From positions 1-64,000 of the forward strand of contig SHBX01000006.1 of assembly GCA_004211785.1 (NCBI GenBank): a stretch of 64,000 nt of DNA, in the 5' to 3' direction. Below, piece after piece: positions 22,288 through 39,331 of this stretch (the first letter of the stretch is position 1; each line of letters begins with the position of its first letter). A program made the translations under genes and the position numbers. The notes under the pieces are model-generated. The model ran no database searches. It was not told the DNA's origin and was given only the letters and a program-made list of their open reading frames with translations. The DNA is from Winogradskyella sp. GTDB taxonomy: Bacteria; Bacteroidota; Bacteroidia; Flavobacteriales; Flavobacteriaceae.

Positions 22288-23424
22288 ATGAAAATAGGTA
22301 TTGTTTGTTATCCTACATTTGGTGGTAGTGGTGTAGTAGCCACAGAATTAGGTTTGGAATTGTCTAAACGTAGCCATGAAATTCATTTTATCACATACAA
22401 GCAACCTGTACGTTTAGAATTGCTAAGCAAAAACGTTCATTTTCACGAAGTGCATGTTCCTGAATATCCTTTATTTCATTATCAACCATACGAATTAGCT
22501 TTATCAAGTAAATTAGTAGATATGGTGAAGTTACATGGTATTGAGTTACTTCATGTCCATTATGCTATTCCGCATGCTTATGCTGCATATATGGCTCAGC
22601 AAATGCTAAAAGATGATGGTATTTATGTGCCTATAGTGACAACACTTCACGGAACAGATATCACATTGGTTGGGAGTCACCCTTTTTATAAACCTGCTGT
22701 AACGTTTAGTATCAATAAGTCTGATGCAGTGACCTCTGTATCCGAAAGTTTAAGGCAAGATACTTTGCGTCTTTTTGATATTAAAAATGAAATTGAAGTT
22801 GTACCAAACTTCATAGATATTGAGAAACATCAACCAAATTTTACCGATTGTCAACGTAGTATGATGGCAACTGACGATGAGTTGATTGTTACGCACATAA
22901 GTAACTTTAGGGAAGTAAAGAATATCCCAGATGTTATTAAAGTGTTTTATAATGTGCAAAAAGAAATACCTGCCAAATTAATGATGGTTGGTGAAGGTCC
23001 TGAAAGAGAACCTGCTGAAAATTTAGTGAAACGTTTAGGCATTAGTGATAAGGTTGTTTTCTTTGGGAATAGTAATGAAATAGATAGAATTTTATGTTTC
23101 AGTGACCTATTCTTATTACCATCACAAACTGAAAGTTTTGGGCTTGCTGCGCTAGAAGCTATGGCGTCTAGTGTTCCTGTTGTTTCTTCTAATTCTGGAG
23201 GGTTATCAGAGGTAAATAAGGATGGTTTCTCTGGATATTTAAGTGATGTAGGTAATGTAGATGAAATGACCGGAAACGCTCTTAAAATACTCCAGAATAA
23301 AGAAACACTAAATAAATTTAAGGCAAATGCAAAAGCACAATCTTTAAATTTCGATTTACATGCTATTGTTCCTATGTATGAAGCCATATACGAGAACACA
23401 CTATCTGAATGTTTAGTAAAATAA
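22288..23424 (+). CDS. bshA: N-acetyl-alpha-D-glucosaminyl L-malate synthase BshA
   Basis: A GT4-family enzyme of 378 residues that begins MKIGIVCYPTFGGSGVVATE, the signature opening of BshA. The C-terminal GT4 motif ESFGLAALEAMASSVPVVSS is intact. BshA joins UDP-GlcNAc and L-malate, the first step of bacillithiol synthesis, so the organism probably uses bacillithiol as its low-molecular-weight thiol; bshB and bshC are not in the window. A hairpin terminator follows immediately, shared with the convergent downstream gene. Confidence 0.93.
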   Translation: MKIGIVCYPTFGGSGVVATELGLELSKRSHEIHFITYKQPVRLELLSKNVHFHEVHVPEYPLFHYQPYELALSSKLVDMVKLHGIELLHVHYAIPHAYAAYMAQQMLKDDGIYVPIVTTLHGTDITLVGSHPFYKPAVTFSINKSDAVTSVSESLRQDTLRLFDIKNEIEVVPNFIDIEKHQPNFTDCQRSMMATDDELIVTHISNFREVKNIPDVIKVFYNVQKEIPAKLMMVGEGPEREPAENLVKRLGISDKVVFFGNSNEIDRILCFSDLFLLPSQTESFGLAALEAMASSVPVVSSNSGGLSEVNKDGFSGYLSDVGNVDEMTGNALKILQNKETLNKFKANAKAQSLNFDLHAIVPMYEAIYENTLSECLVK

Positions 23425-30839: not shown

Positions 30840-32147
30840 ATGAAAAAACTCGCACTACACTGGAAGATTATTATAGGAATGGTTCTAGGAATCGCCTTTG
30901 GACTTGGTTTTACAACTTTTGAATCTGGCCCAGAGATTATTGCAGATTGGATTAAACCATTTGGAACAATTTTTATTAATTCTTTAAAATTAATTGCTAT
31001 TCCATTAATTCTAGCGGCTTTAATAAAAGGTATTTCTGATTTAAGAGATATATCTAGTTTATCAAAAATGGGTTTAAGAACAATTGTGACCTATGTGATA
31101 ACAACCATAATTGCTGTTTCAATAGGATTGTTAGTAGTTAGTACTATTCAACCTGGTAATTCTATAGAGGAAGATACCAGAAATGAACTCATCGAAGCTT
31201 ATGGAGGTGATGCAGAAGCAAAACGTGTAGCTGCTCAAAATCAGAAAGACGCTGGTCCATTACAAGCTTTAATTGATTTGGTGCCTAGTAATATTGTTAG
31301 TGCAGCTTCTAGTAATAGAAATATGTTGCAAGTTATTTTCTTTGCTGTATTCTTTGGTATTGCATTGATTCTTATTCCTGAAGAAAAATCAAAGACAGTA
31401 AAGAAATTTTTTGATGGACTTAATGAAGTCATACTAAAGATGGTTGATTTAATAATGCTAGCTGCTCCTTATGGTGTATTTGCATTAATGGCTGCATTAG
31501 TTGTTGAGGCACCAAGCACAGATTTGTTTGCTGCTTTAGGTATGTATGCAATATGTGTTGTATTGGGGTTAGCTTTAATGGTTGTTTTTTATATTTTTCT
31601 TGTTAAGATATTCACTAAAAAGTCACCAAGTTTCTTTTTAAATGGTATAGCTCCGGCTCAATTATTAGCCTTTTCGACAAGTAGCAGTGCTGCTACATTG
31701 CCAGTAACAATGGAACGTGTTACTGAACATCTTGGTGTAGAAGAAGAAGTATCTAGTTTTGTGTTACCAATTGGAGCAACAATTAACATGGATGGTACTA
31801 GTTTGTATCAAGCTGTTGCTGCTGTCTTTATTGCGCAAGCATTCGGGATGGATCTTTCATTTGGAACTCAATTAGGTATTATTGCTACTGCAACATTAGC
31901 TTCCATCGGTTCTGCTGCTGTTCCAGGAGCTGGAATGGTGATGCTTGTTGGCGTGTTAGGTTACGCAGGAATACCTGAAGCTGGTTTAGCACTAATATTT
32001 GCTGTTGATAGACCGTTAGATATGTGTAGAACAGTTATTAATGTAACAGGAGATGCAACAGTGTCTATGCTAGTTGCTAATTCTCAAGACAAACTTCATG
32101 ATCCAAAACCAAAAGAATGGGATGATAATTATGAAGCTGTAAAGTAA
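30840..32147 (+). CDS. Dicarboxylate/amino acid:cation symporter (SLC1/GltP family)
   Basis: A 435-residue inner-membrane transporter with about eight helices and the two re-entrant loops of the SLC1 family. Substrate- and sodium-binding signatures are visible: FSTSSSAATLPVTME (serine-rich hairpin), INMDGTSLYQA and DRPLDMCRTVINVTGD. It takes up glutamate, aspartate or C4-dicarboxylates with sodium or protons; substrate cannot be settled. It has a small insertion (SIEEDTRNELIEAYGGDAEA) typical of marine Bacteroidetes members. Probably cotranscribed with the AsmA-like gene. Confidence 0.93.
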   Translation: MKKLALHWKIIIGMVLGIAFGLGFTTFESGPEIIADWIKPFGTIFINSLKLIAIPLILAALIKGISDLRDISSLSKMGLRTIVTYVITTIIAVSIGLLVVSTIQPGNSIEEDTRNELIEAYGGDAEAKRVAAQNQKDAGPLQALIDLVPSNIVSAASSNRNMLQVIFFAVFFGIALILIPEEKSKTVKKFFDGLNEVILKMVDLIMLAAPYGVFALMAALVVEAPSTDLFAALGMYAICVVLGLALMVVFYIFLVKIFTKKSPSFFLNGIAPAQLLAFSTSSSAATLPVTMERVTEHLGVEEEVSSFVLPIGATINMDGTSLYQAVAAVFIAQAFGMDLSFGTQLGIIATATLASIGSAAVPGAGMVMLVGVLGYAGIPEAGLALIFAVDRPLDMCRTVINVTGDATVSMLVANSQDKLHDPKPKEWDDNYEAVK

Positions 32148-32280: not shown

Positions 32281-33318
32281 ATGAATGTTTGTTTCATCAT
32301 GTATCCTTGGGAAAACATTGACCCAGAAAATGATACAAGTTTAGCTCTAATAAAGGAATGTGTTAAAAGAGGTCATGGTGTGGCTATGTGTACACCTGCT
32401 AATTTAACTATACGAGATAGTGTGACTAATGCTTTTTGCAATGTGATTAGTCGCATGGACAAAGTGCCGTCAACTCTAAAAGCATTTTATAAAAAGGCTA
32501 TTTTAAGAGAAGAAATGCTGCCTCTGGCAGGCTTTGATGCTATTTTCTTTAGAGCAAATCCACCATTAGATCCATTAATGCTTAATTTTTTGGATTCTGT
32601 AAAGGATGATGTGTTTATCGTGAATTCTTTACAAGGTATGCGAGAAGCGAACAATAAATTATATACTGCAGCTTTCGGTGATGCGCATAGTAATATTATA
32701 CCAAACACACATGTATCAAAAAATAAGAATTATTTAATTGAACAAATTAGAGAGTCAAAATCTGACAAAATGATACTTAAACCTTTAAATGGTTTTGGAG
32801 GTTCTGGCGTTATTCTTATTGAAAAATCTGCGATGAGTAATATTAATTCATTATTAGATTTTTATATCAGTGCTGGTGAAGGTGAATCTAACTATGTAAT
32901 TCTTCAAGATTATATTGAAGGTGCTGATAAAGGCGATGTTAGGATTTTAATGCTTAACGGCGAAGCTGTTGGTGCAATGAAGCGTGTTCCAGGTGATGAT
33001 GACCATCGTTCTAATGTTTCTGCAGGTGGTTCTGTGCAAAAGCATGCTTTAACCAAAGAAGAGAAAGCCTTGTGTAGACAAATAGGTCCAAAACTTGTAA
33101 AAGATGGATTATATTTTGTAGGTATTGATGTGATTGGAGGTAAACTTGTTGAAGTAAATGTCATGTCGCCAGGTGGAATCACATACATCAATAAAGTTTA
33201 TAAGAACAAGAGAAAAGTTGAAGAAAAAGTCATTGACTTTTTAGAAAGTAAAGTGCTTGATAATCTTGAAGCGTTTAATAGAAGAACACGTCTAAGAAAA
33301 ACGGTTGAAGATGCATAA
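32281..33318 (+). CDS. ATP-grasp ligase, glutathione-synthetase-like
   Basis: A 345-residue cytoplasmic ATP-grasp protein. The ATP-binding lid MILKPLNGFGGSGVILIE, the YVILQDYIEGADKGDVRILM segment and the late metal-binding EVNVMSPGGITYI are arranged as in GshB. Such enzymes form an amide or peptide bond via an acyl-phosphate. The organism encodes BshA, so classical glutathione synthesis is not implied, and the gene neighbours (rhodanese-TerB, N-formylglutamate amidohydrolase-like, DUF1704) point to a dedicated small peptide or amide product. It leads a four-gene operon with gaps of 11, 6 and minus 1 bases. Confidence 0.85.
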   Translation: MNVCFIMYPWENIDPENDTSLALIKECVKRGHGVAMCTPANLTIRDSVTNAFCNVISRMDKVPSTLKAFYKKAILREEMLPLAGFDAIFFRANPPLDPLMLNFLDSVKDDVFIVNSLQGMREANNKLYTAAFGDAHSNIIPNTHVSKNKNYLIEQIRESKSDKMILKPLNGFGGSGVILIEKSAMSNINSLLDFYISAGEGESNYVILQDYIEGADKGDVRILMLNGEAVGAMKRVPGDDDHRSNVSAGGSVQKHALTKEEKALCRQIGPKLVKDGLYFVGIDVIGGKLVEVNVMSPGGITYINKVYKNKRKVEEKVIDFLESKVLDNLEAFNRRTRLRKTVEDA

Positions 33319-33329
33319 ATATTGATATT

Positions 33330-34484
33330 ATGCTTCAAATTGAATCGCCATTAGTTTCTGTTGATTGGCTTCATGAGCATATTGAAGCAGAAAACTTAAT
33401 CGTCTTAGACGCAACAATTTCTAAAGTTACTGACTCAAACTTAGGAATTGATTTCGGTTATATCCCTAAATCTCAATTTTTTGATATAAAGATGAAGTTT
33501 AGTGATACCTCTGGTAAATTCCCAAATACATTGCCAAGTATAGAACAGTTTCAAAGAGAGACTCAAAAGCTAGATATAGATAATAATAGCGCCATTGTTG
33601 TTTATGATTTGCATGGAATATATTCTAGTGCAAGAGCTTGGTGGTTGTTTAAATACTTCGGGCATAATAATGTTGCCGTTTTAGATGGCGGTTTGCCTGA
33701 ATGGTTTAATAAAGGGTTCAATACAGTCAGCAATTACGAGACTTCTCAATCTCAAGGAAATTTCATTGCAAAACTCAAAACATCATTAATTACAAATTTT
33801 ACAGGCGTAAAGTCATTTTCTAGTTCTAATGTGGCGTTAGTTTTTGATGCACGTTCCCGAAAACGATTTTCTGGAGAAACACCAGAACCTAGAAAAGGTT
33901 TACGAAGTGGAACACTCCCAAATTCAGTAAATCTGCCTTACACAGAGTTATTAGATAGCACTACTTTAAAATCTAAAGAGCAATTAAAACAAATATTTAA
34001 TAACTTGATAAACCATCAAGAAACACTAGTTTTTAGCTGCGGCACAGGAATTACAGCTTGCAATCTAGCACTTGGAGCAACAATAGCTGGTTATGAAGAT
34101 TTAGTAGTTTATGATGGCTCATGGACAGAATATGGCACATTAACACGTAATACTATGGAAGTACCTAATTGGACTAAAAATGAGTTTATGGCATACATAT
34201 TATTATATGCTGCACATTCAGATTTTAAAGAAGATAATCATGAGCGCAATGTTATCATCTCTAAAGTAGACATGCAAACTTTTCAGAAAATCCATGATGA
34301 GTTCTCTGGAGATAATGATTACCAATGCATTCAAAAAATATTAGCTTCTGTAGAAAGACACAATTATTCTCCTGAGAATATTGACGAAATATTAGCAGAT
34401 ATTAAAGGGTTATTTTTCGCAGATGGTGATTTTGATATTAAAGAACATTCCATGCTTTTGTTTCTAAAGCGTATTTTAAAATAG
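33330..34484 (+). CDS. Tandem rhodanese sulfurtransferase fused to a TerB-like domain
   Basis: A 384-residue protein. Residues 1-275 form two rhodanese domains of the 3-mercaptopyruvate/thiosulfate sulfurtransferase type; the second has the active loop SCGTGITACNLALG, with the nucleophile Cys in a six-residue CGTGIT-A loop. Residues 276-384 are a separate helical domain (VPNWTKNEFMAYILLYAAHS, FSGDNDYQCIQKI, KGLFFADGDF) that resembles small TerB-like proteins normally encoded as stand-alone genes; an in-frame ATG at 34155 coincides with its start. The fusion suggests sulfur transfer tied to a membrane or metal-stress sensing module, but the role is inferred only. Confidence 0.82.
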   Translation: MLQIESPLVSVDWLHEHIEAENLIVLDATISKVTDSNLGIDFGYIPKSQFFDIKMKFSDTSGKFPNTLPSIEQFQRETQKLDIDNNSAIVVYDLHGIYSSARAWWLFKYFGHNNVAVLDGGLPEWFNKGFNTVSNYETSQSQGNFIAKLKTSLITNFTGVKSFSSSNVALVFDARSRKRFSGETPEPRKGLRSGTLPNSVNLPYTELLDSTTLKSKEQLKQIFNNLINHQETLVFSCGTGITACNLALGATIAGYEDLVVYDGSWTEYGTLTRNTMEVPNWTKNEFMAYILLYAAHSDFKEDNHERNVIISKVDMQTFQKIHDEFSGDNDYQCIQKILASVERHNYSPENIDEILADIKGLFFADGDFDIKEHSMLLFLKRILK

Positions 34485-34490
34485 AATTTT

Positions 34491-35321
34491 ATGCTAAGAC
34501 TATCAATTTCTGAAATTATAGATAAGATTAATTCTGAAGTCATTTTTCATGCGGTTTCAGAAGATTATTCTTTTACTATAAAGATTGATAAATATGTGCC
34601 TTATACTTGTGCTGCGGTGCATGATGGGCACCAATTTAGAAAAGAGCTTTGGGATAATTGTTTGCATTCAGAATATGATCGTTGGTATGAAGAAGATCCA
34701 GAAACTAAGAATATGGTTCAGTCTCATCCCATTATTATTGCTGGTTGTGATTCGCGTTTCGAATACGATTTAAATCGAGCACCAGAAGAAGCCGTTTTTG
34801 AAACCGCTTGGGGAAAGCAATTATGGAAATCACCATTGCCAAATGTTCAAAAGGAGACAAGCCTGAAAAAACACACAAATTTTTACAAAGTAGTAGAAGC
34901 TCTGATATCAAAACTAGAAGATAAATTTGGTATATGCATTGTCTACGATATGCACAGCTATAATTGGCAACGTTGGAATAGGGAAGTGCCAACCTGGAAT
35001 TTGGGAATTTCTAACGTTGACAATAATCGTTTTGGGAGTTTTATAGAATCTTGGCGTGCTATTTTAGAATCTATTAATTTGCCAAATGATATTCCAGAAA
35101 CGGCTAAGATTAATGATACATTTCAAGGTCATGGGTATTTCTTAAAATTTATTACCAATAACTTTAAAAATACATTAGTTTTGGCAACTGAAATAGCCAA
35201 AGTATATTGCGATGAGTACAATCAGGTTATTTATCCTGAGGTAGTTGTCGCTGTAGAAAATCAGCTTAAAGATTTGCTACCAAAACATGCTGCTGATTTT
35301 TACAAAACGTTTTCTAGTTAA
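34491..35321 (+). CDS. N-formylglutamate amidohydrolase-like protein
   Basis: A 276-residue member of the FGase superfamily (HutG-type zinc amidohydrolases). The metal-site segments are recognisable: VHDGHQFRKELW at about 40-51, IAGCDSRFEYDLNRAPE around 83-99 and the diagnostic VYDMHSYNWQR. Histidine-degradation members hydrolyse N-formyl-L-glutamate, but this gene has no hut neighbours, so another N-acyl or gamma-amide substrate is more likely. It begins seven bases after the sulfurtransferase stop and its stop codon overlaps the next start (TAATG), giving coupled translation. Confidence 0.85.
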   Translation: MLRLSISEIIDKINSEVIFHAVSEDYSFTIKIDKYVPYTCAAVHDGHQFRKELWDNCLHSEYDRWYEEDPETKNMVQSHPIIIAGCDSRFEYDLNRAPEEAVFETAWGKQLWKSPLPNVQKETSLKKHTNFYKVVEALISKLEDKFGICIVYDMHSYNWQRWNREVPTWNLGISNVDNNRFGSFIESWRAILESINLPNDIPETAKINDTFQGHGYFLKFITNNFKNTLVLATEIAKVYCDEYNQVIYPEVVVAVENQLKDLLPKHAADFYKTFSS

Positions 35322-36478
35322 TGCCAAGTATTAAGACAACACAAGAGTTTGAAGCCATTTTTGATATCGATTCTAATCTAAATAGATTAGTCAAAAACAT
35401 TGAGCTACTTAATTATATAAATCCATTAAATATTGCTGTTGAAAAAAAGAAATTCTTTTCAGCTAAGTATAATTACGAACCTCAGTTTAAGTATCCAAAG
35501 ATTAAATTCAATGGCTATAAACTACATCGCTTATTTTTCTCTCAACGTCTAGAGCGCATAGAAGATGACGATATTCGTCAATTATATGAAGACATTATCT
35601 ATGAATATTCTGGACTTATAGAATGTATTGAAACCATTGGCAAAGAAAAAAAATTCTACTATAATAGCTTAAAAAGTTTTGGAACTCCAACTGAGCGTGA
35701 TATTGAGAATGCTAAGTTTATTTTACGTTTTGACGATGTAGATGAAGCCGATTTAGAACCTATACATAATGTCCTATATGCTAAGGACTATTTTGAAAAC
35801 TATTCAAAACGTTATGATTTTGAGTATAATCTAAAGATTAGTAACAATATTTCTGCTGCAGCGATGGTGCTTAATAACACGCAGACCTTAGTGTTACGTA
35901 AAAATCATAAATACAGTAATAATCAATTAAAGGTATTAGCAAATCATGAAATTGGTGTGCATTTGGTGACGACTTTTAATGGTTTATCTCAGCCACTTAA
36001 GGTATTTTCTAACGGATTTCCAAATAATGTAGAAACCCAAGAAGGTTTGGCTGTTTACTCGGAATACATGAGTGGTTCTTTAACTATGTATAGATTACGT
36101 GAATTGGCATTTAGAGTTATAGCAGTAGATAGTTTGAGTAAAGGTTATAGTTTTTCGGATACTTTCAATCTATTAAACGGGCAATACAAACTTGAACGTC
36201 ATAAAGCATTTAGCATTACACAACGTGTGCATCGTGGCGGTGGTTTTACAAAAGACTTTTTGTATTTAACGGGTTTAAGAAATGTATATCAATATGCAAA
36301 GCAGAATAAGGATTTAGGAAAGTTGTTAATGGGTAAAGTCTGCATGTCCTATACACCAACGATTGATAAGCTTACCGATTTAGGTTTGGCAATATCACCT
36401 AAATACTATACTGATGCTTATGAAAGCAATAGTAATACCAATTCTAAACTAGATTTTATTCTAGATGGGTTAAAATAA
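35321..36478 (+). CDS. DUF1704 (QEGLA-motif, MATCAP-like) metallopeptidase
   Basis: A 385-residue protein of the family annotated as flavohemoglobin expression-modulating QEGLA motif protein (DUF1704, TIGR02421). The zinc motif is NHEIGVHLV (HExxxH) followed 30 residues later by the diagnostic TQEGLAVYSEYMSG, whose Glu would be the third ligand. Human MATCAP, a tyrosine carboxypeptidase, belongs to the same fold, so a carboxypeptidase or amidase activity is likely. The start overlaps the stop of the preceding gene by one base. It closes the operon; a structured inverted repeat follows directly. Confidence 0.88.
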   Translation: MPSIKTTQEFEAIFDIDSNLNRLVKNIELLNYINPLNIAVEKKKFFSAKYNYEPQFKYPKIKFNGYKLHRLFFSQRLERIEDDDIRQLYEDIIYEYSGLIECIETIGKEKKFYYNSLKSFGTPTERDIENAKFILRFDDVDEADLEPIHNVLYAKDYFENYSKRYDFEYNLKISNNISAAAMVLNNTQTLVLRKNHKYSNNQLKVLANHEIGVHLVTTFNGLSQPLKVFSNGFPNNVETQEGLAVYSEYMSGSLTMYRLRELAFRVIAVDSLSKGYSFSDTFNLLNGQYKLERHKAFSITQRVHRGGGFTKDFLYLTGLRNVYQYAKQNKDLGKLLMGKVCMSYTPTIDKLTDLGLAISPKYYTDAYESNSNTNSKLDFILDGLK

Positions 36479-36620
36479 AAACCTCAAAGCTAGATTTTTC
36501 GGTCTATCATCTTCAAAAATGAAACTTATAATAGGGTAGACTTGCCTTATTGTAAGAGCTTGATTCGTTCCCAACTAACAGAAGCAGGGCTCAAACTAAC
36601 ATAATCTAGCTTTGAGGTTT
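36479..36620. ncRNA. Candidate structured RNA closed by an 18-bp perfect stem
   Basis: AAACCTCAAAGCTAGATT (36479-36496) pairs perfectly with AATCTAGCTTTGAGGTTT (36603-36620). Inside, arms at 36502-36506/36537-36541 and 36556-36559/36589-36592 can form two further hairpins, giving a three-way junction of about 142 nt. On the minus strand the closing stem is followed by TTTTTATTTT, a good U-tract, which favours a minus-strand transcript; on the plus strand the 3' arm contains TAGCTTTG, a TAnnTTTG promoter-like word. I considered 6S-Flavo RNA and SRP RNA but cannot confirm either. The alternative is only an inverted repeat acting as terminator for the operon. Confidence 0.4.
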
Positions 36621-36743: not shown

Positions 36744-37166
36744 TTAATCTAAGAATTTAGACTTTAATTCTGGTGTAGGAATCATACAAGCATCTCTTTT
36801 GCCATACCATTTGTATCGATTTTTAGCGATATAATCGTAAAACCGATTTCTTATAAAGGTTGGAATAACAAAGAAAACAGCCATAAGACTTGTTGGGAAA
36901 TTTAGGGATTTTGCCACGTGCAGTGCAGCAGCAGATTTACTATAAATCTTAAATGTTTCTGGATTAAAAAGCAAGATAGAGTCTATTTCTGTAGTATCTA
37001 TATTATACTCATTAATTATAGCCTCACCAATTTCACTCTGTAGCGGAGCAAATAGAAACTTGTTTTTGGCATCTCGTTTTATAACATACAAAACACTACT
37101 ATTACAAAGGTTACAAACCCCATCGAATAGTATTAATTGCTTGCCTTTTGGGATGCTGTTTATCAT
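36744..37166 (-). CDS. DCC family thiol-disulfide oxidoreductase-like protein (DUF393)
   Basis: A 140-residue DUF393 protein with the defining DGVCNLCNSSV motif (CxxC at the start of a thioredoxin-like fold) at residues 15-25 and the PETFKIYSKSAAALHVAK segment. Family members are proposed thiol oxidoreductases, sometimes fused to membrane domains; the substrate is unknown. A central stretch, LMAVFFVIPTFIRNRFYDYIA, is hydrophobic as in relatives. The ATG overlaps the mutS2 stop codon by four bases, so the two are translationally coupled. Confidence 0.88.
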   Translation of the reverse strand: MINSIPKGKQLILFDGVCNLCNSSVLYVIKRDAKNKFLFAPLQSEIGEAIINEYNIDTTEIDSILLFNPETFKIYSKSAAALHVAKSLNFPTSLMAVFFVIPTFIRNRFYDYIAKNRYKWYGKRDACMIPTPELKSKFLD

Positions 37167-39331
37167 TTTTTTGCCTCTACTAATTCTAATAAATCCACAC
37201 TAACATTGGTTGTGAATAAACCATAGTTTACTGTAACTTTCCCTTTTTCAATATCATCTATACTACCAATAGCACGTCCATCATGCATACGTACGCGGTC
37301 ACCAATCTTAAGTACTGGCTTTGGAGGTGCAGGCTTTTCTTTTTCTTTTTGTTTGGCAGCTTTTTTCTTTTTACGAATAACTTCAACTTTCTTTTCAGCT
37401 TCCTTTTTTATTTGAATTTCTTTAGCTTTTTCTGCACGTTTCTGTTTTGCTGAAACTTTCTTGCGTTTAGAATTTTCAATTTGCACCAATCGGAATAGCT
37501 CTGCCATCAACTCACGTTTCTTATTGTTATTCTGAAATTTTTCAGCCAAGTCATTTACTTTTTGACCTAAATAAATCAAACGTTGATTGCTGTCATATAA
37601 CTCTTGATAGCTTTCCAGTTTTTTCTGCACTTTCTGGTTAATACCTTCAAGTTTTTCTGCTTCGGTCAGCTTTTTCTTTTCGTTTTCTTTTAAAGAACGC
37701 TCAGTTCGTTCCAATTTACTTCGCTGTTTTTGGAGTTTTGCGATAGTAGCATCAAAACGCACTTTGCCTCGTTCTATCTTCTTTTTTGCCTTATTAATTA
37801 GACTATACGGAATACCATTTTTCTGTGCGACCTCAAACGTAAAGGAACTTCCTGCTTGTCCAATGACTAGCTTATATATCGGTTCAAGCGTACGTTCATT
37901 AAATAGCATATTAGCGTTACGCATGTATGGCAATTCATTCGCCAGTAGTTTTAAATTCGAATAATGAGTCGTAATTATTCCAAAAGCCTTTCTGTCATAG
38001 AAAACCTCTAAAAAGCTCTCAGCCAAAGAGCCTCCTAATTCTGGGTCAGAACCTGTGCCAAATTCATCTATTAAGAATAGTGTATTCTTATTACACTTTT
38101 TTAAGAAATAATTCATTTGTTTTAAGCGATAACTGTATGTGCTTAAATGATTTTCAATAGATTGATTATCTCCAATATCACTTAATACTCTATCGAACAA
38201 ACAGACTTTACTGCGTTCATGAACTGGAATTAGCAAACCGCTTTGTAGCATTACTTGCAATAATCCTACCGTTTTTAATGTAATACTTTTTCCACCAGCA
38301 TTTGGTCCAGAAATTACAATTATTCTCGCGTCATCACTTAGCTCTATAGTTTGCGGAAATGTCTTTTCACCATGTTCTGCATTGGTTAAATAGAGTAGTG
38401 GATGATATGCATCACGAAGATGCATATTACGTTCTTCTGAAACCTCCGGAAGAATCGCATTCATGCTTCTCGCATATTTTGCCTTTGCAGATATGACATC
38501 AATCTTAATTAAAAACTCTTGGTATTGATTCAATAAAGGCAGAAACAAACGTATGTAATCAGTTAGCTCTTTTAGAATTTTGATAACTTCTTCCTTCTCT
38601 TCGTATTCTAAGTTATTAAGTTCTCTTGAATAGTTCAAAGTAGTTTCAGGCTCTATGTAGACAATACTTCCAGTTTTACTACTTCCCATGATAGCGCCTT
38701 TAACTTTACGTCTATACATAGACTTCACTGCTAAAACACGCTTATTCTCAACTACAGATTCGCGTATATCATCTAAGTATTCAAGATTGTGGTATTTATT
38801 TAATGCTGAAGAAAAGCTCGTATTGATTTTACCTCTTAGATTTCCGATAGACTTTCTTAAAACTGAAAGTGTAGGCGAGGCATTATCTTTTATATCTCCA
38901 AATCGGTCAACAACGGCATCTACTTGTTCAATAACGGAAGTGTTGTGCTCTATTGGATTTGAGAGCTGATATAAATTCTGATAGTATTCTTTAAATTTCA
39001 AAAAGAATTTCAGAATGATATTCACTGTGAGAGATGTGCTTACGATCTTCTGTAAACTTATTACTTCTAAATAAGTATTTTCAATATTTAGAAGCTTTAA
39101 TTCTTTAGTTAAAGCTTCGAAACCATGATTTGGTATGCGATTATCATTATCAAAAGAAGATACATACTCGTTAGTGTAGGCAAGTTCTCTTTTTAAAATT
39201 TCAGCATCAGAAAATGGCACAACCATAAGCGCCGATTCTTTTCCCAAATTAGTGACACAGTGTTCACTTAATTGAGACTGAACGGTGCCAAACTCTAAGT
39301 CATCTAATGTTTTCTGATGAATATTTATCAT
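37163..39331 (-). CDS. MutS2-like ATPase lacking the C-terminal Smr domain
   Basis: A 722-residue MutS2 family protein. The order is an N-terminal helical core and lever region, then the ABC-type ATPase with VISGPNAGGKSITLK (Walker A), the LFLIDEFGTGSDPE Walker B/D-loop and the LGGSLAESF signature, then a very lysine-rich coiled coil (about residues 500-660) and a short KIGDRVRMHDGRAIGSI beta module. The Smr nuclease domain that ends many MutS2 proteins is absent, a state seen in Bacteroidetes. It probably binds branched DNA or stalled ribosomes and not mismatches. Confidence 0.88.
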   Translation of the reverse strand: MINIHQKTLDDLEFGTVQSQLSEHCVTNLGKESALMVVPFSDAEILKRELAYTNEYVSSFDNDNRIPNHGFEALTKELKLLNIENTYLEVISLQKIVSTSLTVNIILKFFLKFKEYYQNLYQLSNPIEHNTSVIEQVDAVVDRFGDIKDNASPTLSVLRKSIGNLRGKINTSFSSALNKYHNLEYLDDIRESVVENKRVLAVKSMYRRKVKGAIMGSSKTGSIVYIEPETTLNYSRELNNLEYEEKEEVIKILKELTDYIRLFLPLLNQYQEFLIKIDVISAKAKYARSMNAILPEVSEERNMHLRDAYHPLLYLTNAEHGEKTFPQTIELSDDARIIVISGPNAGGKSITLKTVGLLQVMLQSGLLIPVHERSKVCLFDRVLSDIGDNQSIENHLSTYSYRLKQMNYFLKKCNKNTLFLIDEFGTGSDPELGGSLAESFLEVFYDRKAFGIITTHYSNLKLLANELPYMRNANMLFNERTLEPIYKLVIGQAGSSFTFEVAQKNGIPYSLINKAKKKIERGKVRFDATIAKLQKQRSKLERTERSLKENEKKKLTEAEKLEGINQKVQKKLESYQELYDSNQRLIYLGQKVNDLAEKFQNNNKKRELMAELFRLVQIENSKRKKVSAKQKRAEKAKEIQIKKEAEKKVEVIRKKKKAAKQKEKEKPAPPKPVLKIGDRVRMHDGRAIGSIDDIEKGKVTVNYGLFTTNVSVDLLELVEAKK

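Follow-up and report, generated by a model that had tools for sequence, protein, structure and literature searches.

The stretch analysed here, hereafter the window, comprises 64,000 nucleotides of Winogradskyella sp. (assembly GCA_004211785.1, contig SHBX01000006.1, positions 1 to 64,000), and contains an operon of four genes coding for a putative amide ligase, a rhodanese and two putative hydrolases. An earlier note on this DNA had described four tightly packed genes on the same strand. We confirmed the open reading frames (ORFs) and their spacing: 11 and 6 bases separate the first three genes, and the last two overlap by one base (TAATG). The four genes are the following:

32281-33318, plus strand: ATP-grasp amide ligase of the PRK12458 type (NF009110, GSH-S domains), whose family annotation is glutathione synthetase
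33330-34484, plus strand: two-domain rhodanese of the 3-mercaptopyruvate sulfurtransferase (MST) type (approximately residues 1-275) with a C-terminal TerB-like domain (PF00581)
34491-35321, plus strand: FGase-like zinc amidohydrolase (PF05013, AlphaFold2 fold)
35321-36478, plus strand: MATCAP/DUF1704 gluzincin peptidase with the motifs HEIGVH and QEGLA (PF08014, AlphaFold2 fold)

All four proteins exceed the Pfam cut-offs of their families, with 184.6 bits for GSH-S_ATP, 85.9 for Rhodanese, 45.2 for FGase and 332.9 for MATCAP. The genome of the window, which is 89.7% complete, contains a single MATCAP match. A kinship of the window with Winogradskyella is suggested by the closest MATCAP among the matches listed, that of W. 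wandonensis (85% identity).

A scan of 84,980 species with MATCAP as the query confirmed at least 575 related stretches. The best 80 of these 575, nearly all titled as Flavobacteriaceae genera, form the set of 80 related loci used below, and the neighbourhood statistics as a whole are weighted towards Bacteroidota and plasmid records. The ligase is present in 74 and the FGase in 75 of the 80 loci, whereas the rhodanese (29 loci) and the TerB-like domain (22 loci) are patchy. As the former are near-constant, the conserved core comprises the ligase, the FGase and MATCAP, and the rhodanese and TerB-like domains are additions in some lineages. With such counts, the arrangement exceeds a chance gene order, and the recurring unit of ATP-grasp ligase, FGase and DUF1704 that the earlier note had described is upheld. 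Far from rarely sharing a locus, the homologues of this trio occur together in Bacteroidota, rhizobia and Photobacterium.

One further gene was considered as a fourth member of the core:

30840-32147, plus strand: GltP-like glutamate/aspartate symporter (SDF; PF00375, 419 bits), an upstream syntenic neighbour

We rejected this candidate, as AroC is similarly conserved (66 of 80 loci, versus 69 for the symporter). Moreover, seven loci (L060, L063-L067 and L070), all from Aquimarina, hold the trio, and the fetched stretch upstream of it contains neither the symporter nor AroC. L063 has both genes downstream, on the opposite strand.

Six of the 80 loci show no ligase. In one of them, L054, the contig breaks off within the FGase. 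The other five (L073, L077, L082 and L102, Arenibacter; L086, Flagellimonas hadalis) have MATCAP beside the symporter, with neither ligase nor FGase at the locus. The genomes of these five yielded no close ligase, the best match having an E value of 9.1e-16, within the range of other ATP-grasp proteins, and no FGase match. The ligase orthologue and the FGase are therefore jointly absent in five out of five genomes in which MATCAP stands without them.

The association extends beyond the closest relatives. MATCAP is present in 19 of 395 Bacteroidota genomes, where it is adjoined by a PRK12458-type ligase in 18 and by an FGase in 15; in the genome G186, it has neither neighbour. The close ligase type (at least 64% identity) is found beside MATCAP in all seven genomes that have it, out of 198 searched. 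A second layout, consisting of the FGase, a MATCAP of approximately 610-690 residues and then a second type of ligase, is observed in Bacteroidota (L025-L027, L166 and L167, and without the FGase in L028, L168 and L169) and on rhizobial plasmids. Both ligase types are present in L029 and L030. A MATCAP relative occurs in 127 plasmid records, mostly rhizobial by name, and stretches of eleven were examined; the gene order on the rhizobial plasmids is FGase, MATCAP, ligase. On plasmids of Photobacterium DA100 and GJ3, a ligase of the compact type is followed by a fusion of FGase and MATCAP. In total, FGase and MATCAP form a single protein in four loci, namely L024, L142 and L143, according to Pfam, and L165, according to BLAST only. 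In Pseudoalteromonas and Legionella adelaidensis, MATCAP has no adjoining FGase and no ligase of this type. A fusion of MATCAP with the ligase, suggested by an ORF of 914 residues in L167, was rejected, as Pfam finds ATP-grasp domains only and the MATCAP match lies in another frame. We also rejected a phage origin, since a MATCAP relative is present in just one of 50,697 phage records; this is Pseudomonas phage Y1 (OQ572403.1, 63521-64561, 27.7% identity). A search of the open-licence literature, with subscription papers outside its reach, found no paper about this gene set. A survey of amidoligases published in 2009 by Iyer and colleagues may already describe neighbourhoods of ligase, DUF1704 and FGase genes, so we do not claim novelty for the neighbourhood itself.

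With regard to the FGase-like enzyme, the match to PF05013 (45.2 bits, cut-off 28.9) is in agreement with the predicted fold. The AlphaFold2 model, which has a predicted local distance difference test (pLDDT) score of 94.8, aligns with the N-formylglutamate amidohydrolase 2q7s over 237 residues (Z 24.7, root-mean-square deviation 2.4); a profile search of the PDB gave no sequence match, and there the relation is seen by fold comparison only. The window type differs from N-formylglutamate amidohydrolase in that it is fused to MATCAP in some species and that a histidine-degradation context was not seen. The histidine of the DxHxYN motif is kept in 97 of 98 FGase ORFs. The sole exception is the FGase-MATCAP fusion of Vibrio sp. 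HDW18 (L142, 7125-9116), the FGase half of which reads DMYAYN; a search of that plasmid, though not of the remainder of the genome, found no ligase match.

In all three MATCAP-ligase loci that have no FGase (L028, L168 and L169), an AstE/AspA-type gene (PF24827) adjoins the ligase and occupies the place of the FGase. With the L028 gene as the query, a scan of 112 loci found no match in the remaining 109. FGase and AstE/AspA enzymes act on N-acyl acidic amino acids. The sequence families are different, and the L168 gene falls below both the AstE and the aspartoacylase equivalog cut-offs. The model of the window FGase does match the fold of AstE (1yw4, Z 11.5), but this value lies among those of many M14-type carboxypeptidases (Z 10-12.5), so the FGase and AstE would be at most remote fold relatives. 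Another GSH-S-type ATP-grasp gene directly precedes an AstE/AspA-type gene in L125 (1252-2241 and 2245-3207; outside the 112-locus scan, checked with Pfam) and in L126, both from genomes outside the set with a MATCAP match.

The model of the window MATCAP (pLDDT 91.1) superimposes on human MATCAP (7z5g) over 292 residues with a Z score of 26.0 and a root-mean-square deviation of 2.9, at 21% identity over the structural alignment. The window enzyme thus has the fold of the human MATCAP/TMCP tubulin carboxypeptidases (PF08014), with which it shares the HExxxH, EG, KD and YL positions, and differs from them in its operon with a ligase. Among related ORFs, HExxxH is present in 109 of 109 and [QE]EG[LI]A in 107 of 109. 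The protein also aligns nearly over its full length with the TIGR02421 QEGLA model, a family named for modulation of flavohemoglobin expression, yet it remains under the curated cut-off (316.1 bits, cut-off 338.65). Human MATCAPs are described as removing a Tyr, Phe, Ala or Glu residue that follows a penultimate glutamate, and as shortening polyglutamate (PMC10499314). The operon gives the bacterial relatives of these carboxypeptidases a concrete biochemical setting. By family and by predicted fold, the FGase and MATCAP are both consistent with the earlier proposal of two hydrolases that could trim the product of the ligase.

The ligase is probably mislabelled by its annotation, as it is probably not a glutathione synthase. 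The alternative, namely that it is a true glutathione synthase, or a close gamma-glutamyl-peptide synthase, with neighbours that salvage or degrade glutathione-like thiols and a rhodanese that handles cysteine sulfur, has several resemblances in its favour. The window ligase shares the GSH-S N-terminal and ATP-grasp domains of GshB, both over their cut-offs, over nearly the full length (E value 2.1e-38 with E. coli GshB 1gsa), and the arginines of the mobile loop of E. coli GshB align in it. Of the two GshB equivalog models, it passes PRK05246 (281.2 bits, just above the cut-off of 272), as does the Photobacterium ligase (291.7), but it fails TIGR01380 (231.3, cut-off 299.05), whereas it exceeds the curated cut-off of NF009110 (PRK12458; 457.3, cut-off 408). 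The window ligase and six other PRK12458-type proteins score 421-488 with NF009110 and 186-244 with TIGR01380. The ligase genes of eight genomes reach 186-218 with the latter model, in contrast to 349-464 for four GshBs, and the E. coli and Gordonia GshBs exhibit the reverse pattern, missing NF009110 and passing TIGR01380.

A further difference is found in the putative acceptor loop. The window ligase has the motif NVMSPGGI, with the loop SPGG preceded by the metal-binding asparagine. The loop [ST]PG[GA] is present in 102 of 102 ORFs of the ligase type (101 found by pattern and L168 by eye, with L164, which is not beside MATCAP, included), while all five GshBs have SPT. Likewise, the gene for the preceding step of glutathione synthesis is mostly absent. 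GCS2 is missing from 15 of 20 ligase-bearing genomes (it is present in 2 of 12 and 3 of 8), and Glu_cys_ligase from the 12 of 12 tested. In the genome of the window (89.7% complete), searches for GCS2 and Glu_cys_ligase, though not for the eukaryote-type GCS (PF03074), found neither, and hence no gshA. One bacillithiol gene, that of BshA, is present at 22288-23403, which agrees, as far as one gene goes, with the bacillithiol use that had been suggested for this organism. Two control Bacteroidota genomes (G194 and G076), neither of which is among those with a MATCAP match, carry a GshB that passes TIGR01380, has the SPT loop and lies approximately 1.4 kb from a GCS2 gene.

In a tree of 31 sequences, three groups are separate and supported: the compact ligases (18), the second type including L164 (10), and the three GshBs. 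As the midpoint root, on a tree with long branches, places the GshBs beside the compact type and not outside both types, the tree does not show that the two MATCAP-linked types share an origin to the exclusion of GshB. This position, and the PRK05246 scores, speak for the glutathione synthase reading. Nevertheless, since GCS2 is mostly absent and the acceptor-loop motif separates the ligase from GshB, we regard that reading as unlikely, and the activity other than ordinary glutathione synthesis on which the earlier note depended as probable.

This has a bearing on gene surveys. In one published survey (PMC6282198), gshA was present in only 79% of the genomes bearing gshB, the criterion being 30% identity to queries that included E. 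coli gshB. As the window ligase shares 30.5% identity with the product of an E. coli gshB gene, ligases of this kind may explain part of the excess of gshB over gshA, and many genomes may carry such a ligase under the name glutathione synthetase.

On balance, we lean towards a make-and-cut unit in which the three core enzymes act on one small peptide or amide that contains glutamate (or aspartate) and is not glutathione. This proposal draws on the observed conservation of the trio, the fusions, the joint absence, the replacement of the FGase and the folds, from which each reaction and the sharing of one substrate are predicted. The unit would be cytosolic. The ligase, as suggested by its family, would form an amide bond with ATP. 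The FGase-like enzyme, as suggested by its family and by the AstE/AspA-type replacement, would cleave on the acyl side of an acidic residue, and MATCAP, by analogy with the human enzymes that cut after glutamate, would remove the residue following the acidic one, on its carboxyl side. The acidic residue is suggested because the FGase and AstE/AspA families and the glutamate requirement of human MATCAPs point to it. The rhodanese-TerB protein would be an accessory in some lineages, and in certain species it may deliver or reclaim sulfur from a cysteine-derived moiety. The survival of MATCAP without the other two implies a second use or a salvage role.

Several observations weigh against this proposal. 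MATCAP lacks a neighbouring ligase and FGase in the five genomes described above, in Pseudoalteromonas, in Legionella adelaidensis and in G186; as it persists alone, it must have some role without the other two. Conversely, a PRK12458-type ligase stands alone on an Ensifer adhaerens plasmid (L164, 5001-6047), with no MATCAP, FGase or AstE within approximately 5 kb. The window ligase passes one of the two GshB equivalog cut-offs, and GCS2 is present in 5 of the 20 ligase-bearing genomes. A common locus can also reflect common regulation alone. Finally, the identity of the Photobacterium damselae genes discussed below is derived from gene names and tags, not from sequence.

Published expression data provide a clue to the conditions under which the unit may be used. 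A table for P. damselae RM-71 compares 1% with 3% NaCl (PMC10308900); at the lower salinity, A0J47_RS17020 ("Glutathione synthase GshB") is raised 38.42-fold and A0J47_RS17025 ("QEGLA motif protein") 27.51-fold. As the tags are consecutive and the layout is known from two other Photobacterium species, this pair is likely the counterpart of the unit described here. A COG3930 gene and a "glutathione synthetase" likewise bear consecutive tags in V. vulnificus (VV2_1203/1204; PMC3091676). In some marine relatives, low salinity is probably linked to the expression of the unit. The authors discuss A0J47_RS17020 as a glutathione synthetase (PMC10308900), but we caution against reading the 38-fold induction of this "GshB" as glutathione chemistry. 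The small size of the unit, and its probably strong induction by a simple condition, make a direct test of its product feasible.

The same low-salt table reports a 52-fold increase of RimK, annotated as a ribosomal-protein glutamate ligase (PMC10308900), which fits a different cycle. Here, the ligase would extend the C terminus of a protein by an amino acid, which MATCAP would remove, as TTL and MATCAP do on tubulin. The fold of MATCAP (Z 26 to the human enzyme), the shared HExxxH, EG, KD and YL positions and the ability of the human relatives to take off C-terminal residues after glutamate and to trim polyglutamate (PMC10499314) are consistent with this. In contrast, the ligase is a member of GSH-S, a small-molecule family, and not of TTL, the third enzyme comes from a family of small-acyl amidohydrolases and MATCAP is retained without the ligase, so that we find a protein tail cycle quite unlikely. 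We know of no protein target of such a cycle. Its wider form, a salinity-responsive write-and-erase pair in which the ligase and MATCAP add and remove a C-terminal amino acid on a protein or on a dedicated small peptide, appears to us equally doubtful; if true, it would be a prokaryotic counterpart of the tubulin tyrosination cycle.

The strong co-induction of two of the genes by low salt (PMC10308900), like the persistence of MATCAP alone, would also be expected if the trio were merely co-regulated, for example by salinity, and acted on different compounds. We consider this decidedly improbable in view of the FGase-MATCAP fusions, of the genomes from which FGase and ligase are absent together, and of the replacement of the FGase by an AstE/AspA-type gene, all of which fit a make-and-cut unit better.

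The weakest reading is that of the earlier note, in which ligation, sulfuration by the rhodanese and trimming form one pathway that requires all four genes; the tight layout of the window and a CGSG/CGTG-type loop in 32 of 32 rhodanese relatives are in its favour, but both the rhodanese and the TerB-like domain occur in just 16 of 80 close relatives, and the window rhodanese found no match in the fetched stretches of L024-L027 (Bacteroidota of other families) or L142-L151 (ten plasmid loci), which makes this reading very improbable. Sulfur modification as a core step was accordingly not supported.

The rhodanese itself resembles MST, as its closest PDB chains belong to that enzyme and its loop reads CGTGITA; we take such a CGSG-type loop as a sign of 3-mercaptopyruvate sulfurtransferase activity. 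Its score with PRK11493 is 197 bits, below the cut-off of 250. The two parts of the protein are fused in the window and in 6 of 80 loci, and are separate, alone or absent elsewhere, with the rhodanese occurring without TerB in 13 loci and TerB without the rhodanese in 6. The TerB label is weakly supported: the C-terminal domain of the window protein shows no match to TerB (PF05099), and weak matches are found in 3 of 14 members of the domain alignment, the window not among them (best E value 0.0082).

One further conserved element lies directly behind the operon, outside the enzyme unit:

36479-36620, minus strand favoured: candidate small RNA with a covarying structure, running convergent to the operon

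This element of approximately 142 bases is conserved behind MATCAP in Winogradskyella and its kin, and forms a predicted structure (z -6.6 on the plus strand) closed by a perfect inverted repeat of 18 base pairs. The window and 17 of the 80 loci were aligned, and a covariance model was built from these 18 rows. The model was then applied to the window, to 46 of the 80 loci and to five others, where it gave one further strong match, L054 (75 bits, E value 6e-11). A weak match in L045 (E value 0.22) also appeared, as did echoes of these places on the minus strand. The minus-strand consensus has 36 pairs, 26 of which show compensatory changes. With an added pseudoknot helix, itself without double changes, 41 pairs were tested and 94.2% of 730 cells can pair, compared with 26.8-54.1% in slid versions, and none of 500 shuffles reached the observed values. 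The plus-strand reading is 93.0% paired. As 27 cells form wobble pairs on the minus strand only, versus 11 on the plus strand only, the minus strand is favoured, though without proof. Rfam gave no family match in the window stretch tested, nor in five relatives at the gathering level. Read on the minus strand, the closing stem and a T-rich stretch, located at the stop codon of MATCAP, form the end of the RNA; a scan for consensus terminators, with a loop limit too small for the large hairpin, found none where the operon or the RNA ends. As the right-hand neighbours vary, an independent small RNA appears to fit better than a leader of one gene.

Beyond this element, two genes on the minus strand converge with the operon. 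These are a gene for a DCC1-type thiol-disulfide oxidoreductase (PF04134) at 36744-37166 and a gene at 37163-39331, which we take to be MutS2-like. Relatives of the latter are found in 41 and of the former in 56 of the 80 loci.

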